Source: a virus. Taken from it: a stretch of DNA of 27,563 nucleotides. The notes under the pieces were generated by a model. The model had not been told where the DNA came from. It saw only the letters and a program-made list of their open reading frames with translations, and searched no databases. Within the stretch, counting starts at the first letter, position 1. Each line of letters opens with the position of its first letter. Positions 1 through 25,632 of the stretch are shown here, piece by piece. Location: positions 1 through 27,563 of the IMG/VR virus record IMGVR_UViG_3300021197_000710. One strand, 5' to 3'. The position numbers and the translations under genes are program-made.

Positions 1-45
1 ACGTTTTTTAATGCGAAATTGGTGAATCCGAGGTGGCAGCCTGGC

Positions 46-60
46 TTACCAAATTGGTAA
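46..60. repeat. 15-bp palindrome upstream of the terminase genes
   Basis: TTACCAAATTGGTAA is a perfect inverted repeat with 7-bp arms around a single central base. Its right half, AAATTGGT, also occurs as a direct repeat at 16-23. It lies just before the zinc-ribbon/terminase genes, where cos or pac recognition sites usually sit. It could be a terminase, HNH or repressor site; the role is inferred from position only. Confidence 0.4.
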
Positions 61-16350: not shown

Positions 16351-17046
16351 ATGGACTACATAGAACAATTAAGAAAGGAAGACAATAATGTATTAGTAGT
16401 AGGAGATCTTCACGCTCCGTTTGTTAGAGAAGGATATTTAGAACATTGTGAAAAGGTATACGACCTCTACAATTGCAATCAAGTTTTGTTTATCGGCGAT
16501 ATTATCGATAACCATTATAGTAGTTTTCATGACCCGGATCCCGATGGCTTTGGAGCTGGTGAAGAATTAGATAGAGCTATCGCAAGCATAAAACCTTGGC
16601 ATGAATTATTCCCAAAAGCTAAAGTATGTATTGGCAACCACGACGCCATAGTCTCAAGGAAAGCTTTCGCAAGTGGAGTATCGAAGAGATGGGTTAGAGA
16701 CTATCACGAAGTATTAGGTACTCCAGGCTGGGAATTCGCACAGCAACATATAATTGACGATGTGCTTTACGTACACGGAACTGGTAGCTCTGGTAAAGGA
16801 GCAACTAAACGAATAAGAGAATGGCAAGTATCAGTAGTGCAGGGACACATACACACGGAGGCGTACGTGGATTGGTATTGTAATAAGGACAAGAAACTAT
16901 TTGCCATGCAAGTAGGATGTGGCGTAGATGACCGTAGCTATGCCATGGCCTATGCTAAGAACTTCACAAAGAAGTATATTGTATCTTGTGGGGTGGTTAC
17001 ACAAAAGGGAACGCTTCCAATAGTAGTTCCAATGACCTTAGATTAG
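16351..17046 (+). CDS. calcineurin-like metallophosphoesterase
   Basis: 231 residues with the complete set of metal-binding blocks: GDLHAP (18-23), GDIIDNH (49-55), GNHD (95-98), VHG (141-143) and GHIH (165-168). These bind two metals and hydrolyse phosphoesters. Phage versions include protein phosphatases and nucleases or nucleotide phosphatases. The substrate cannot be told here. It starts 3 nt after the holin stop and is the last gene before the early control region, so it is likely transcribed late. Codon use is like its neighbours. Confidence 0.9.
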   Translation: MDYIEQLRKEDNNVLVVGDLHAPFVREGYLEHCEKVYDLYNCNQVLFIGDIIDNHYSSFHDPDPDGFGAGEELDRAIASIKPWHELFPKAKVCIGNHDAIVSRKAFASGVSKRWVRDYHEVLGTPGWEFAQQHIIDDVLYVHGTGSSGKGATKRIREWQVSVVQGHIHTEAYVDWYCNKDKKLFAMQVGCGVDDRSYAMAYAKNFTKKYIVSCGVVTQKGTLPIVVPMTLD

Positions 17047-19407: not shown

Positions 19408-19655
19408 TGGAAACGAAAGATACAACTATATACAAATGGATGCTAGTCTTTAAGAGACCTCAGATGAATATAGAAAAGAAATACGTAAAAAGCTTTAAGT
19501 TATGGGATAACGACTTAGTGTTTGGTTCTGACAACGTTACTTTCACAGGAACAAATGATGATTGCGGAAAGATGTATGACTATTTCTTAGAACAAGGGAT
19601 ATGTATTAGAGACGACTATAACCTAGGGGAGTTTGATCCTCTCAAAGACTTTTAA
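19407..19655 (+). CDS. 82-residue unknown protein of the replication operon
   Basis: Start overlaps the previous stop (TAATG). The chain is beta-rich with an opening strand (TIYKWMLVFKRP), a Lys/Phe-rich middle (KKYVKSFKLWDNDLVFGSDNVTF) and an acidic C-terminus (GKMYDYFLEQGICIRDDYNLGEFDPLKDF). No recognised family or motif. Coupling to the SSB-like gene and the 1-nt gap before the DnaA-like gene suggest it takes part in, or is co-regulated with, replication. Confidence 0.65.
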   Translation: METKDTTIYKWMLVFKRPQMNIEKKYVKSFKLWDNDLVFGSDNVTFTGTNDDCGKMYDYFLEQGICIRDDYNLGEFDPLKDF

Positions 19656-19656
19656 T

Positions 19657-20082
19657 ATGAAACTAGATGAACTATTAGTAGAGACTAAAAAGAGAAATAT
19701 GGATAATGTGGTGAACGCTGTTTGCTATCATACCAAAACCTCTAAAACACGGGTGCTTTCGAAATCACGTGAAAGACATTATGTTGATTGTAGGAGATTG
19801 ATATTTACTTTGATACGTGAGATCTATAACTACCCACTTTTAACTATAGGTAGACACTTTAAGAAGAATCATGCTACGATTATTCACCAACTAAAAGTAC
19901 ACAAGCAATTGTGTGGATATAGCAACGAATATAGCAAGAGCTACCACATAATAAAGAACTTACTTATTGTTGACCAAGATTCTTTCACGGTATCTAAGAT
20001 CTTAGTCGAAGAAAGAGAATACTACCAAAAGATGTTGAACAGTGTAAACGACCAAATACTCGCGAACAATGAAGAGGATTAA
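19657..20082 (+). CDS. DnaA domain IV-like DNA-binding protein
   Basis: 141 residues from the ATG at 19657 (an in-frame ATG at 19633 overlaps the previous gene). Residues about 33-90 follow the DnaA C-terminal (domain IV) pattern: SKSRERHYVDCRRLIFTLIRE, then 'YPLLTIGRHFKKNHATIIHQLK', where NHATIIH matches the RDHTTVxHA signature of host DnaA. The AAA+ domain is absent. The rest is helical and charged. It could bind DnaA-box-like sites in the control regions and steer host replication proteins, or act as a regulator. Overlap with the next initiator-like gene by 14 nt supports a replication role. Confidence 0.82.
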   Translation: MKLDELLVETKKRNMDNVVNAVCYHTKTSKTRVLSKSRERHYVDCRRLIFTLIREIYNYPLLTIGRHFKKNHATIIHQLKVHKQLCGYSNEYSKSYHIIKNLLIVDQDSFTVSKILVEEREYYQKMLNSVNDQILANNEED

Positions 20083-20707
20083 AGTAGTTAAGGACAAAAA
20101 TTACACAACAATTTGTAATGAGTTTGTGTTTAATCCTAAACTATCTTTGAAGTCTAAAGGATTATTGTGTCACTTGTTAGCCGTTCCGAATGATTGGAAG
20201 CTATATGTTGAAGAGGTAACTAAATGGCACAAAGATGGCAAGTCAAGTATTTACTCAGCTTTCAAAGAGTTAATGGCAAATGGTTATTTAGAAAGGGAAG
20301 TTATTAGAGAGAAAGGTAAGATAGTGGAGTGGGAGTATATCGTTTACGAAAAGCCACTTATGCAAAAGCTAGATGTAGAAAAGCTAGATGTAAAAAAAGA
20401 AGCACTACTAAGTACTAATGATACTAAAGACTTATATAAATTAAAGGTTATATATAAGGACAACTTTGAAAACGATTCTAAATTGATAGCAGAAGAATTA
20501 GGATTCCAAGATCTAACTAATTTTATAGACTACTGGACAGAGAAAAGTCCTAATGCAAAAAGATGTAGATGGGAGAAGCAAACATCTTTTGATATTAAGA
20601 GAAGAATGCAAAGATGGATGAAGACAAATAAGAATACTAAAACGAAAGTGCAATCGAGTTTAGATACTTGGCAAGAAGCACGTAACTTAATAAACAAAAA
20701 CCAATGA
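20069..20707 (+). CDS. winged-helix replication initiator-like protein
   Basis: 212 residues. The N-terminal ~100 residues have the HTH_36-type pattern 'FVFNPKLSLKSKGLLCHLLAVPNDWKLYVEEVTKWHKDGKSSIYSAFKELMANGYLER', which binds DNA at phage origins. A linker rich in Lys/Asp follows, then a C-terminal helical domain (FENDSKLIAEELGFQDLTNFIDYWTEKS, SFDIKRRMQRWMKTN) like those that meet the helicase or its loader. No primase or helicase motif. With the DnaA-like gene it probably forms the initiation module. The stop overlaps the next ATG. Confidence 0.82.
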   Translation: MKRIKVVKDKNYTTICNEFVFNPKLSLKSKGLLCHLLAVPNDWKLYVEEVTKWHKDGKSSIYSAFKELMANGYLEREVIREKGKIVEWEYIVYEKPLMQKLDVEKLDVKKEALLSTNDTKDLYKLKVIYKDNFENDSKLIAEELGFQDLTNFIDYWTEKSPNAKRCRWEKQTSFDIKRRMQRWMKTNKNTKTKVQSSLDTWQEARNLINKNQ

Positions 20708-21418: not shown

Positions 21419-21535
21419 ATGGAAATAATAATACAAATAGTTCTTATTCTAGGAATATCATACACTGGATTGACACTTTATTTTCAACATAGGTGGGATA
21501 AGAAACACAAAGAATTCAAAAATAAATTGAAATGA
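21419..21535 (+). CDS. 38-residue membrane peptide
   Basis: A hydrophobic helix (IIIQIVLILGISYTGLTLYF) then a basic tail (QHRWDKKHKEFKNKLK). The leader AAGTAGATATG repeats the one used by the PLP gene at 23832, and the stop overlaps the next ATG by 4 nt (ATGA). Function unknown. Its coupled position between two conserved genes is the main support for it being real. Confidence 0.55.
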   Translation: MEIIIQIVLILGISYTGLTLYFQHRWDKKHKEFKNKLK

Positions 21536-21858
21536 ATATATTAGAAAAAGCAAACGAGATCATAAACGATAGAAAAGAAGAGAAGGAGAGAATGTACGGT
21601 CCTTTCGAATCAGGTATGGATCGAGCAGCACAAATAGCCAAAGGAATGACTGGTAAAGACTTCACCGCTGAGGATGTATACGCATGTATGGTTGCGCTTA
21701 AACTATCACGACATAGTTATCACTACAAAGAAGATAATTTATTAGACGCGGTAGCTTACATTGGATCACTTAATAACTATATAAACAATAAAGGAAATGG
21801 AAAAGAAGAAACTAGGAATTGTGGGTGTGCTGAGCAATCCTGCAAAAAGAGACACTAG
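21532..21858 (+). CDS. DUF6378-like phage protein
   Basis: 108 residues. The arrangement 'EKANEIINDRKEEKERMYGPFESGMDRAAQIAKGMTGKDFTAEDVYACMVALKLSRHSYHYKEDNLLDAVAYIG' matches the DUF6378 pattern as I recall it: an 'R...YG' turn, a helical middle and a 'lKl.R......DN..Da.aYi' ending. This family often lies near phage nucleotide-metabolism genes and has an all-helical MazG-like look. It overlaps the next gene by 62 nt in another frame, the longest overlap here. The Cys-rich tail (CGCAEQSCKK) comes from this overlap and may be dispensable. Confidence 0.7.
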   Translation: MNILEKANEIINDRKEEKERMYGPFESGMDRAAQIAKGMTGKDFTAEDVYACMVALKLSRHSYHYKEDNLLDAVAYIGSLNNYINNKGNGKEETRNCGCAEQSCKKRH

Positions 21859-22768
21859 TCACAACGGAGGTTGGACTTATGTACTAAAAGCAATTACTGA
21901 ACATTGGGGCAGAGATGTTTCGGTAATGACAGAAAAAGATGATTGGAATAACTGCGATGAGTTATTGTTGAATGAAGGAGTTAATTACAAGGAAGGAGTT
22001 TATAATTTATTCGGAGGAGTTAATGAATCGCTACTAACAAGACTTGCTAAGCTTAACGAATTCAAAGGAGAGATATTCTGCTTAGGAGAACACATTGACT
22101 ACGTAGATCTTTGTGAAAAGAGAGACATAGACTTTAAGTTCACTAAAGAGATAACTTATTTAGATCCGAAATACCTAGGAAACAAATTGGTGTATGGAGA
22201 TTCTCATTCCATTTCAGTATTTAAACCAGGATTAGCAATTAGCAGAAACGACGGAGCAACACTTCATGGAATGCTAGAAACAGGACTGAGAAAACTAATC
22301 CCATCAGGACTCAAAGAATTAACTTTCTACGCTGGTAACATTGATGTAAGACATCACTTGTGTAGATATTGGACAGAAGGCACGTCGTCTGAATTCATAA
22401 AACCAATGATAGATAAACTAGAACAACAGTTGTTAGATCTAGAAATCGATCAAATCAACCTAGTATGTCTATTACCAATAGAGAACGAAAGCAGAAAGAT
22501 ACCAGGAACAGGAATGTACAAAGGAACACCGTACTATGGATCGTTCGCTAAAAGATCAGAACTAGTGAGTGCATTCAACTCAATGATTTTCCACATTTGT
22601 TACAAGAACAATTGGACACCACTATCTTGGCCTTGTGGATTTAAGAATAACGAAGGAGAGCTTAGATTTGAAGTAATGGAAGCGAGGCAATCTGTACACT
22701 TAGCTCCTAAGAGTTATATGTTCGCAGACGAATTACTATTTAGAAAACAACTTAACCTCTTCGAATAA
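21797..22768 (+). CDS. SGNH/GDSL hydrolase-like protein with Rossmann-like N-terminus
   Basis: 323 residues. The N-terminal ~115 residues (KLGIVGVLSNPAKRDTSHNGG, CDELLLNEGVNYKEGVYNLFGG) look like an alpha/beta sugar- or nucleotide-binding domain. From about 132 the SGNH blocks follow: GDSHS (134-138), a Gly in the 'DGATLHGM' turn, GNIDVRHH (180-187, the GxND block) and His301 in SVHLAP (the DxxH block, with the Asp replaced). Such enzymes hydrolyse or transfer acyl or phosphate esters. The start of MEKKK at 21797 is the only good ATG. It ends on the start of the next gene (TAATG). Inside a base-modification-like operon it may trim or transfer a group on the modified base; this is inference. 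Confidence 0.6.
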   Translation: MEKKKLGIVGVLSNPAKRDTSHNGGWTYVLKAITEHWGRDVSVMTEKDDWNNCDELLLNEGVNYKEGVYNLFGGVNESLLTRLAKLNEFKGEIFCLGEHIDYVDLCEKRDIDFKFTKEITYLDPKYLGNKLVYGDSHSISVFKPGLAISRNDGATLHGMLETGLRKLIPSGLKELTFYAGNIDVRHHLCRYWTEGTSSEFIKPMIDKLEQQLLDLEIDQINLVCLLPIENESRKIPGTGMYKGTPYYGSFAKRSELVSAFNSMIFHICYKNNWTPLSWPCGFKNNEGELRFEVMEARQSVHLAPKSYMFADELLFRKQLNLFE

Positions 22769-23829
22769 TGAAACAATACGGAAAACTATTAGTAGACGAA
22801 GATATATTAGAAGGACTAGACGACTATCACGTGAAATCTAGAATCGTCCAAGAGTATCACTTCGAAGGAAACCCTAAACGAATGAAGGACAAAGAGTTCA
22901 AATCACTTATTGATGACGATCTTATCTACAACGTTCCTATCTATGACGTCTTGCATAGGAGATATGCAGCTTTTAGTTCTTTAGTAGAAGCATTATGGTA
23001 TGGAGAACAAGATCCTAAAGGCAATGGAGAATACTTCCCAAAGTTTGAGAGATATGACTTAGATGTGATAGAATGGATGTATCTGTTTTATACGTTTAGA
23101 CTATGTGGATCTGGGATAAACTATAAGCCCAAAAAATCTGAAGGCTTTTCACCGTTTGGCACTCATGGCTTTGGCAACTTTTGGATAATAGATGACATAA
23201 GATTAGGTAGATTAGGAATTGAAAACTGGGAAGATTCGTTACAAGACAGGAATAGACCTTTTACAAACAACAAAGGCTATTTGCTACCTCAATTCTCATT
23301 CCCTCATTTAAAGAATAGCCATCTAAAGTATTTCATATTGAGGTGGTCTAAAAGATTCATAGATGATTTGTTTAGATTCATTTCAAGAAATCCAGGATTG
23401 TCGATCTATGAAATAACAGACTATGGAAACGATTGGCTAATGGATAAAGGATTTAAGAGACAGAACTTTGTTATGACAGCATTCGCTATGGACATGGCAG
23501 AATATTTCCCTCATTTGGTAAACAAAGAAAGCAAGGTGTATGCAGGTACTAATGCAACTAAATGCATTAAGCAGATATTTAGAAAGGTCGGTAAGATGAG
23601 CGAGTTTGATTTTATCAATGAAGCTTTACAATTCTTAGCAGATAGATATGGTGCAAACCCCTATGACGTAGAGGACTCTAGAGCATGCGATCCTATTAGA
23701 TACTTTCAAGAATATCAAAGTGCGGACCACGTGGCTAAGAACAACGGAATACGGTATAAGAATAACTCTATCTTAAAAGAGAAATGGGGATTAGATAAGT
23801 ATTATGAGTGGGCAAACAATTTAAAGTAG
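22768..23829 (+). CDS. helical glycosylase/pyrophosphorylase-like protein (possible base-hypermodification enzyme)
   Basis: 353 residues, mainly helical. Conserved-looking motifs are FYTFRLCGSGINYK (107-120), HGFGNFW (133-139), 'QNFVMTAFAMDMAEYFPHLV' (232-251), VYAGTNATKCIKQIF (257-271) and 'VEDSRACDP' (301-309). The RxxGSGxxY and HGxxN motifs in an all-helical frame recall the DNA-glycosylase-related families reported with phage thymine hypermodification (the putrescinyl-thymine pyrophosphorylase-type and hmdU-kinase-associated helical domains). I am not certain of the exact family. Coupling to the PLP and hydroxymethylase genes supports that reading. Confidence 0.45.
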   Translation: MKQYGKLLVDEDILEGLDDYHVKSRIVQEYHFEGNPKRMKDKEFKSLIDDDLIYNVPIYDVLHRRYAAFSSLVEALWYGEQDPKGNGEYFPKFERYDLDVIEWMYLFYTFRLCGSGINYKPKKSEGFSPFGTHGFGNFWIIDDIRLGRLGIENWEDSLQDRNRPFTNNKGYLLPQFSFPHLKNSHLKYFILRWSKRFIDDLFRFISRNPGLSIYEITDYGNDWLMDKGFKRQNFVMTAFAMDMAEYFPHLVNKESKVYAGTNATKCIKQIFRKVGKMSEFDFINEALQFLADRYGANPYDVEDSRACDPIRYFQEYQSADHVAKNNGIRYKNNSILKEKWGLDKYYEWANNLK

Positions 23830-23831
23830 AT

Positions 23832-24707
23832 ATGGCACACAATAAACATATAGTAGATGGACAGAATAGAGAACTCAATTTAGTTTATCCAAATAGAGAA
23901 TCTTATTTAGATCTTACTAAAGATTTTGTAAGTAAGCTTCCACCTATAGAGATAAGAAAGCATGAGGGAATCACTGTAGTAAGAGAAGATCTTGTATTAA
24001 AGGGTGGAACGAAGACTAGAGCAGCAGAGTTCTTGTTTAGTCAAATCAAAGAAGACACAGTTGTATACGTTGCTCCTAGAGTTGGGTTAGCACCTTGCGC
24101 GATTATGGAATTAGCTAAGTTGTATGACAAAAAGGTGATACTCTTTATGCCAGCGTGCAAAGAAATAAGTGAACACCAAGCATACGTAATTAGTGAAGGA
24201 GCAGAAGCAAGATTTGCTAGAATAGCAGCAATGCCCAATTTAAATAAAATAGCTAAAGATTATGCCGATAAGAACGGCTACAAGTTTCTTCCTTTTGGAT
24301 TAGCACATCCGTATGTGATAGCAGGATTTGTTAGAATATGTGAAACACTATTAGAACAATACAAAATGCCAGAGGAGATATGGACCGTTGTGTCTACAGG
24401 AGTATTGACTAGAGGTTTACAAATAGGATTTGAAGAAACTAATATGAAAGGTGTCTGCGTAGCTAGAAATATGAAGCAAGGAGAACTAGGTAGGACAGAG
24501 ATCTTATCAGAGCCTTTAGCATTTACACAATTAGAAAAACAATTACCTCCTTTCAATACAGTTAAAAGCTATGACGCGAAAGCATGGAAGTACATACCTA
24601 AAAACACAGGAAGAGACATTTGGTTTTGGAATGTAGCAGGAGAACTCGAAGCTCCTAAATACTTCGACAAATCAACGATAGATAGTTACAGAGAATGGGG
24701 ACAATAG
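23832..24707 (+). CDS. PLP-dependent enzyme, fold type II (TrpB / ACC deaminase-like)
   Basis: 291 residues from the ATG at 23832; an in-frame ATG at 23808 overlaps the previous gene. Residues 50-75 (VVREDLVLKGGTKTRAAEFL) match the 'RDDL...GGNKxRKLE' segment that carries the PLP lysine in ACC deaminase-type enzymes, here Lys61. VYVAPRVGLAPCAIMELAKLYDKK and the phosphate-binding STGVLTRGLQIG (about 188-199) complete the fold-type-II picture. The reaction (beta-replacement, elimination or amino-acid transfer) cannot be told. The stop overlaps the hydroxymethylase start by 13 nt. In this setting it may supply or attach an amino-acid-derived group to a hydroxymethyl base. Confidence 0.72.
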   Translation: MAHNKHIVDGQNRELNLVYPNRESYLDLTKDFVSKLPPIEIRKHEGITVVREDLVLKGGTKTRAAEFLFSQIKEDTVVYVAPRVGLAPCAIMELAKLYDKKVILFMPACKEISEHQAYVISEGAEARFARIAAMPNLNKIAKDYADKNGYKFLPFGLAHPYVIAGFVRICETLLEQYKMPEEIWTVVSTGVLTRGLQIGFEETNMKGVCVARNMKQGELGRTEILSEPLAFTQLEKQLPPFNTVKSYDAKAWKYIPKNTGRDIWFWNVAGELEAPKYFDKSTIDSYREWGQ

Positions 24708-25342
24708 AATTTGAAAATGCTACTAGAGCTTTCGAGCACTACATGAGAATGATTATGACTTTAGGTCACAAATTTGCTGATACAAAAACATTATTCAATG
24801 TTGGCTTTCTAATTAAGAATCCAACGGACAACATAATCACTACTGACTATAGAAAGTTTAGTACTAAATATGCTGAAAGAGAATGGGATTGGTATATGTC
24901 TGGAAATAGGAACGCAGAGAAGATATCGTTGTACGCACCTATATGGGCAAATCACATGGATGAAGATGGAAACGTCAATAGCAACTATGGTTGGCAATGG
25001 AAACGTGAAAACCAATTAGAATATGTAGTAGAGCAATTAAGATCTAATAAGGAAACGAGACAAGCAGTGGTAAGTATCTATGATGCTAAAGAACACTCAG
25101 AATACAAATACGATACTCCTTGCACACTTTCAATTCATTTTCAAGTACTTCATGACAAACTTAACATGACGGTAAACATGAGGTCTAACGATCTTTGGTA
25201 TGGTTTTTGCAATGACCAATATCAATTTAGTAACCTATTGCAAATGGTGGCTGAGATGGTAGACTTAGACGTAGGAACCTATTATCACTTTGCATCAAAT
25301 TTACATTTATACAACAAAACAATTAAAGAACAGAAACTATGA
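24695..25342 (+). CDS. deoxynucleotide hydroxymethylase, thymidylate synthase family (dCMP-type active site)
   Basis: 215 residues. Thymidylate synthase landmarks are EREWDWY (Glu63), 'NVNSNYGWQW' (94-102), ETRQAVVSIYD, catalytic Cys143 in DTPCTLS, NMRSND (161-166) and 'HLY' (204-206). The segment NMRSNDLWYGFCND puts Asp174 where thymidylate synthase has the Asn that selects dUMP. T4 dCMP hydroxymethylase has Asp at this place and a similar 'NMRSND...GF.ND'. This suggests 5-hydroxymethyl-dCMP as the product, although hydroxymethyl-dUMP is not excluded. The protein lacks the last ~30-40 residues of the usual C-terminus. It is coupled to the PLP enzyme upstream and MazG downstream. Confidence 0.82.
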   Translation: MGTIEFENATRAFEHYMRMIMTLGHKFADTKTLFNVGFLIKNPTDNIITTDYRKFSTKYAEREWDWYMSGNRNAEKISLYAPIWANHMDEDGNVNSNYGWQWKRENQLEYVVEQLRSNKETRQAVVSIYDAKEHSEYKYDTPCTLSIHFQVLHDKLNMTVNMRSNDLWYGFCNDQYQFSNLLQMVAEMVDLDVGTYYHFASNLHLYNKTIKEQKL

Positions 25343-25632
25343 GAAGATTCGAACTAATTAGAGAATGGGCAGACGAAAAAGGTATCTACGAAAAAGGAGA
25401 TCCTAAGACTCAAACGTTAAAGCTTGTAGAAGAAGCTGGAGAACTAGCTAAGGCTATTCTTAACGACGATCAAGATGAGGTAATAGATGCAATAGGTGAT
25501 TGTGTCGTGGTTCTAACCAACCTAGCCCATTTACGTGGGATAACCATTGAGAGTTGTATTGACGAAGCTTATAGCGTAATAGCTAAGCGAAAAGGAAAGA
25601 TGATTAACGGAACATTTGTAAAACAAGAATAG
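25339..25632 (+). CDS. mazG: MazG-like nucleotide pyrophosphohydrolase
   Basis: 97 residues. The EExxE (Glu31, Glu32, Glu35) and ExxD (Glu47-Asp50, then Asp54) metal-binding motifs of the MazG fold are present in 'KLVEEAGELAKAI' and 'DEVIDAIGD'. The enzyme converts NTPs or dNTPs to monophosphates plus pyrophosphate. It starts 4 nt before the hydroxymethylase stop (ATGA), which fits a role in removing the canonical dNTP or producing dNMP substrate. A role in countering the host (p)ppGpp response is the other common idea. Confidence 0.88.
   Translation: MRRFELIREWADEKGIYEKGDPKTQTLKLVEEAGELAKAILNDDQDEVIDAIGDCVVVLTNLAHLRGITIESCIDEAYSVIAKRKGKMINGTFVKQE

Follow-up and report, generated by a model that had tools for sequence, protein, structure and literature searches.

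The window analysed here is a 27,563-nucleotide stretch of viral DNA (IMG/VR virus record IMGVR_UViG_3300021197_000710, positions 1 to 27,563), and the system in question is a cassette of six genes on its + strand (21532-25632). The results of this analysis suggest that the cassette probably serves to hypermodify cytosine in phage DNA, with an SGNH-type protein as the activating enzyme in the place of a kinase. A fuller version, to which we give somewhat less than an even chance, is that of a widespread and unprecedented route in which an SGNH domain carried on a β-glucosyltransferase (bGT)-like domain activates 5-hydroxymethylcytosine (hmC) in DNA, probably by O-acylation, and a relative of the amino acid:DNA transferases (AADT) and a pyridoxal phosphate (PLP) enzyme build an undescribed amino-acid-derived cytosine. 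The features computed for the cassette are its gene set and order, a cytosine-type enzyme signature, a bGT-like domain, an SGNH fold, a helical-superfamily fold and gene fusions. A sequence-only reading of this DNA had proposed six consecutive, mostly overlapping genes for pyrimidine hypermodification, framed on the thymidine pathway and possibly yielding an undescribed base. All six open reading frames (ORFs) are present on the + strand with the boundaries proposed there, apart from one corrected start; the idea of a hypermodification cassette fits the tests run, and the thymidine framing has given way to a hydroxymethyl-cytosine one. No description of the gene set was found in the open-access literature, an absence that is no proof of novelty.

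A predicted cytosine-type hydroxymethylase

The fifth gene (24695-25342, + strand) encodes a 215-residue protein of the thymidylate synthase (TS) family (Pfam Thymidylat_synt, 2.4e-28), with Cys143 as the predicted nucleophile. Its profile matches T4 dCMP hydroxymethylase, the CMP hydroxymethylase MilA and thymidylate synthases alike, and the motif MRSND..GF.ND is common to this enzyme and T4 gp42 (1b49). Cytosine and uracil enzymes are told apart by the residue at Asp179 of T4 gp42. Asp174 of the window enzyme aligns at this position, and Cys143 and Asp174 are each found in 88/88 of the TS-family homologues having the column, which confirms the dCMP-type residue picked out in the sequence-only reading. 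The same column is occupied by Asn in the enzyme of M6, a phage with bases derived from 5-hydroxymethyl-deoxyuridine (hmdU), in Td of phage 44RR and in the thymidylate synthases checked; the dUMP-type (Asn) feature of thymidine systems is not found in the cassette. The signature points to a predicted dCMP hydroxymethylase of the T4 gp42 type. Together with the resemblance to T4 and 44RR, this signature makes the cassette most likely a hydroxymethyl-cytosine system rather than a variant of the thymidine pathway.

The glucosylation of hmC in T4 (gp42, gp56, beta-GT) resembles the cassette in its dCMP hydroxymethylase signature, its dCTPase-like pyrophosphohydrolase and a bGT-like N-domain; the cassette differs in having an SGNH domain in place of the glycosyltransferase C-terminal domain, and in its extra helical and PLP enzymes. 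The pyrophosphohydrolase is MazG, the last gene of the cassette (25339-25632, + strand, 97 residues, overlapping the TS gene by 4 nt), which matches Pfam MazG (PF03819, 1.3e-8, above the cut-off) and PHROG MazG-like (1e-33) and carries the EExxE/ExxD motif. It is proposed to act as a dCTPase feeding dCMP to the hydroxymethylase, the role of T4 gp56, dCTP being its presumed substrate. The first gene (21532-21858, + strand) encodes a small, helical protein of 108 residues matching DUF6378 (PF19905, 3.9e-13), perhaps related to the nucleotide pool. A relation between DUF6378 and MazG was looked for with hhalign and was not detected (E=0.36).

Nine large-phage contigs with related cassettes were searched for hydroxymethylases. 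G007 has an Asp-type enzyme near its cassette, and G003, G005 and G009 have one far from it, two of them together with an Asn-type ThyA. A search of the large phages for a TET/JBP route to hmC gave no PF12851 match, and shows little, as the control matched nowhere either.

The bGT-like/SGNH protein and its helical partner

The second gene (21797-22768, + strand), which overlaps the DUF6378 gene by 62 nt, encodes a protein of 323 residues that the sequence-only reading had labelled SGNH-like. The label stands for one part of it: residues ~129-310 form an SGNH-hydrolase-like, esterase-type domain, and residues ~1-128 a T4 bGT-like N-domain, so that the protein is a two-domain enzyme and no odd hitch-hiker. 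Searched as single sequences in Pfam and the PDB, this protein and the helical protein encoded downstream gave no match, and their identities came only from profiles, structure prediction and fold searches. Compared with seven bGTs by hhalign, the family scored E=4.2e-9 (probability 96) in an alignment that pairs the two N-termini and covers bGT residues 1-99, as against E values of 0.2-1 for control pairs of unrelated families. Among 85 homologues, 13 matched Pfam T4-Gluco-transf (PF09198, best 8.3e-5) and nine matched Lipase_GDSL. The AlphaFold2 model (predicted local distance difference test, pLDDT, 95) retrieved the esterases 2hsj, 1bwp and 6njc and T4 bGT (1j39, 1qkj) from the PDB with Foldseek, at ~1e-4.

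The bGT motif N70-F71-F72-G73-G74 is matched by N70-L71-F72-G73-G74 in the window protein, at identical residue numbers, with N70 and G74 invariant in 82/82 sequences; we take this loop of T4 bGT to contact DNA beside the flipped base. As judged from profiles, the N-domain is homologous to that of T4 bGT, tying the protein to hmC in DNA. In the second domain, the GDS serine motif (G134-D135-S136) and the putative catalytic His (H301) are found in 82/82 sequences and G180 N181, for the Asn of block III, in 81/82; S136, H137, D183, R185, H187, E229, R233, R253, E295 and H301 are invariant in the family. The bGT-like domain could suggest that the protein transfers a sugar or some other group, in which case the base would be a glycosylated hmC with a sugar tailored by the PLP and helical enzymes. 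A UDP-galactopyranose mutase gene does lie two genes 5' of the SGNH gene in Aeromonas phage 25 (L008:4764-8035), and in Lactobacillus phage ATCCB (L169) TS, beta-glucosyltransferase and UDP-galactopyranose mutase genes stand in a row, which suggests galactofuranosyl-hmC there. This explanation is nevertheless improbable: the likeness to bGT ends at about bGT residue 100, the UDP-glucose-binding C-terminal domain is replaced by the SGNH domain, and no sugar-nucleotide gene recurs in cassettes of the window type.

The third gene (22768-23829, + strand, sharing 1 nt with the second) encodes a protein of 353 residues, predicted by fold to belong to the HMUDK-helical/AADT superfamily and proposed as a transferase onto activated hmC. 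In the sequence-only reading it was taken for a helical glycosylase/pyrophosphorylase-like protein; its helical nature stands, and the superfamily is the better assignment, by fold and weakly by sequence. Its AlphaFold2 model (pLDDT 91) shares the helical fold of this superfamily: in BFVD, Foldseek found AADT proteins at E=8e-15 and 1.1e-4, the SP10 5-hmdU DNA kinase at 1.8e-3 and, more weakly, proteins of W-14 and others, and no PDB entry matched below E 0.7. PF18723 gave weak matches to the helical gene of one relative (L025, 22288-23337; E=0.001 in a whole-record search) and to one member of the helical family, A6 (0.031). A second helical family, F10 (~350 residues), separates the helical and PLP genes of large phages at 25 loci (L138:8172-9311 and 24 others) and is related by hhalign to the helical family (1.6e-4) and to HMUDK_hel (3.2e-3). 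F10 was considered as the missing kinase and rejected: the string G....GKT occurs in only six members and is not conserved, and the hhalign resemblance is to the helical family.

The thymidine hypermodification systems of M6, ViI, PhiW-14 and SP10 have a TS-family hydroxymethylase, a HMUDK/AADT-type helical protein and a PLP enzyme, as the cassette does, and modify a hydroxymethyl handle after replication (PMC6449724). There, hmdU is first built into DNA, where a 5-hmdU DNA kinase phosphorylates it before it is modified (PMC6449724). The cassette differs in its Asp-type hydroxymethylase, in lacking a P-loop 5-hmdU DNA kinase and in the additional bGT-N::SGNH protein, and its helical and PLP proteins are not detectably close in sequence to those of the thymidine systems. 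In the sequence-only reading the kinase had seemed absent, and this holds for the record: the window contains no Walker A/P-loop kinase ORF, the window record (G000) has no PF18723 match (ViI control, 1.3e-84), and no kinase is present among the recurrent neighbour gene families of cassette loci.

In M6, a P-loop ORF lies directly 5' of the helical gene, the position held by SGNH in the cassette. ORF233c of Aeromonas phage 44RR (795 residues) consists of an SGNH protein with a C-terminal domain matching HMUDK_hel proteins (hhalign, 3.2e-7), and a gp42-type hydroxymethylase of the Asp kind (L163) is encoded in the same genome. In the ORF233c system of Aeromonas phages 44RR2.8t and 31, the bGT-N::SGNH protein is thus homologous to that of the cassette and fused to a HMUDK-type helical domain, and its gene is annotated only as hypothetical. 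As the SGNH protein lies beside, or is fused to, a helical protein where hmdU phages have a kinase, we infer that it may be the enzyme activating hmC in DNA in the kinase's place. It could instead be a late editing or tailoring esterase of the same hmC hypermodification, putting acyl groups on or taking them off after the helical step, with a host or unrecognised kinase as activator. In structure the SGNH domain indeed comes closest to esterases (platelet-activating factor acetylhydrolase, sialate O-acetylesterase), and there is room for host kinases or for kinases without a Walker A motif. The adjacency and fusions just described and the lack of any recurrent kinase argue against a late esterase, which we consider rather unlikely.

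The fourth gene encodes a fold-type II PLP enzyme. It more likely starts at ATG 23832 than at GTG 23808 (23832-24707, + strand), because homologues begin (M[AS]H[ND]KH) at M9 of the longer reading in the window; this start lies 2 nt past the helical stop, and the gene overlaps the TS gene by 13 nt. The match to PALP was marginal (1.5e-8, 34.8 bits, just below the 35-bit cut-off), whereas the Pfam matches proposed as a check on each protein were obtained for DUF6378, Thymidylat_synt and MazG. A profile of 50 homologues matches cysteine synthases (3.6e-5). The Schiff-base lysine of those enzymes aligns with the invariant K69 (GTKTR, numbered on the longer reading), which is predicted to play the same part; on this profile evidence cysteine synthases are the nearest solved relatives. 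Erythrobacter phage ZS04 has a PLP relative fused to a N6_N4_Mtase domain (L010:2182-4764), a fusion that independently points to a DNA-modification context. Two genes annotated as ParB/sulfiredoxin precede the PLP gene of Microcystis phage Mae-JY30 (L009).

Pathways to nucleoside natural products often include PLP enzymes, and the TS-family enzyme aligns with MilA, which acts in mildiomycin synthesis, as well as with T4 gp42. The cassette might, then, make a modified free nucleotide or small molecule rather than modified DNA, in keeping with the lack of a visible phage DNA polymerase gene in the window. This is very improbable, given that two core proteins have DNA-acting relatives (bGT and AADT/HMUDK), that one phage has its PLP enzyme joined to a DNA methylase and that the cassette is spread over many phages, beside replication genes.

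Recurrence of the cassette across phages

A conserved gene neighbourhood, the absence of which had been named beforehand as grounds for abandoning the proposal, was looked for and found. IMG/VR was scanned with profiles of the helical and PLP proteins and all ORFs were then mapped with hidden Markov models. The resulting 145 non-redundant loci comprise the window and those fetched from viral contigs, and 61 of them have the complete six-gene set. PLP genes are present at 143 loci and helical genes at 139, counts that are high partly by construction; the counts for SGNH (134), DUF6378 (107), TS (90) and MazG (72) are free of this bias. An initial scan of viral contigs with the single SGNH sequence had found no relatives. 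The SGNH gene almost always adjoins the helical and PLP genes, DUF6378 lies immediately 5' of SGNH at 105 loci (median gap -4 nt), MazG adjoins TS at 71 loci, in either order, and cassette neighbours mostly overlap or sit no more than 20 nt apart. SGNH::helical gene fusions occur at three loci (L026, L036, L056).

Three layouts were found: DUF6378-SGNH-helical-PLP-TS/MazG in small phages, including the window; DUF6378-SGNH-helical-(x)-PLP beside genes for dUTPase, DNA polymerase B and ribonucleotide reductase in large phages; and TS-helical-(x)-PLP-SGNH. Between the window and the most distant layouts, helical proteins are only ~27% identical, so the linkage has outlasted much divergence. MazG, TS and DUF6378 genes are common in phages, and one might suppose that unrelated genes of nucleotide metabolism have simply gathered beside replication genes, with no joint pathway. 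The recurrence of the gene set excludes chance clustering, and the persistence of SGNH, helical and PLP genes together across such different phages, with fusions and in three gene orders, makes a lack of any joint pathway hardly credible.

Some cassettes of the window type carry an additional gene between PLP and TS/MazG (family F33; L017:3890-4453 and 10 further loci), encoding a 187-residue protein with the conserved motifs YG.CFPIS, SHWF and IIDL; it resembles a Cys-His-Asp (transglutaminase or papain-like) enzyme and has no Pfam match. Upstream of the cassette, the window encodes a calcineurin-like phosphoesterase (16351-17046; family F34, kept in 11 relatives), a DnaA C-terminal-domain-like protein (19633-20082; Bac_DnaA_C, 2.6e-14) and a replication-initiation/DnaD-like protein (20069-20707). 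The window and a related contig, G001 (29,851 bp), both break between an HNH gene and that for the small terminase, within tens to a few hundred bases; this corresponding position suggests that both are near-complete linear genomes. Inverted repeats of ACCAAATTGGT(A) occur close to the ends of both contigs (window 1-60 and the start of G001), beside the terminase genes, and may mark a packaging site.

A proposed route to a modified cytosine

Several observations weigh against an hmC route activated by the SGNH protein. SGNH enzymes usually carry an Asp three positions ahead of the catalytic His; here this position (298) is Gln or Lys, with the invariant E295 nearby. The direct hhalign comparison of the helical protein with six HMUDK_hel proteins was not significant (E=0.19), so that the proposed link to AADT/HMUDK comes from a predicted fold. 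Phage 44RR lacks A6-type helical and A3-type PLP genes, and its system is therefore related to that of the window and not the same. Among the nine large-phage contigs, the one TS-family gene of G004 is for an Asn-type thymidylate synthase, and in four others no TS gene was found, possibly as they are fragments. Finally, neither a gp1-like hm-dCMP kinase nor the polymerase gene already mentioned was seen in the window, so that the model is incomplete here, and phosphorylation and polymerisation of hm-dCTP would fall to host enzymes.

With these points in mind, we infer the following action on DNA, acyl activation, step order and product for the SGNH-activated hmC route. MazG, perhaps with DUF6378, would convert dCTP to dCMP, which the TS-family enzyme would convert to 5-hydroxymethyl-dCMP; this would be phosphorylated by host or other kinases and incorporated into DNA. 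The bGT-N::SGNH protein would bind DNA through its bGT-like domain, and its SGNH serine centre would act on the hydroxymethyl group of hmC. In the simplest chemistry, this group would be acylated into a leaving group, the step for which thymidine systems use the P-loop 5-hmdU DNA kinase. The helical protein, as an AADT relative, could then swap the leaving group for an amino acid or amine, and the cysteine-synthase-like PLP enzyme may supply or tailor the amino-acid part. A two-stage hypermodification of cytosine is known from Synechococcus phage S-B43, which makes 5-carboxymethylcytosine (CmoX-CmoY) and ligates glycine to this C5 handle (PMC12783734). There, unlike in the cassette, which has none of these genes, the handle is made on DNA by a methyltransferase with carboxy-S-adenosylmethionine (Cx-SAM), and an ATP-dependent ligase is used.

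If the proposed route is correct, there would be a parallel and common hmC branch of phage DNA hypermodification, with a different activation chemistry and a new use for a glucosyltransferase domain. Phages are known to hypermodify hydroxymethyl-uracil with amino acids, a DNA kinase providing the activation, and the known enzymes acting on hmC are mainly sugar transferases. The base would be unfamiliar to existing restriction and sequencing tools. Genes that have long gone without annotation in cultured Aeromonas phages (44RR ORF233c) would also gain a likely function, making the proposal directly testable.

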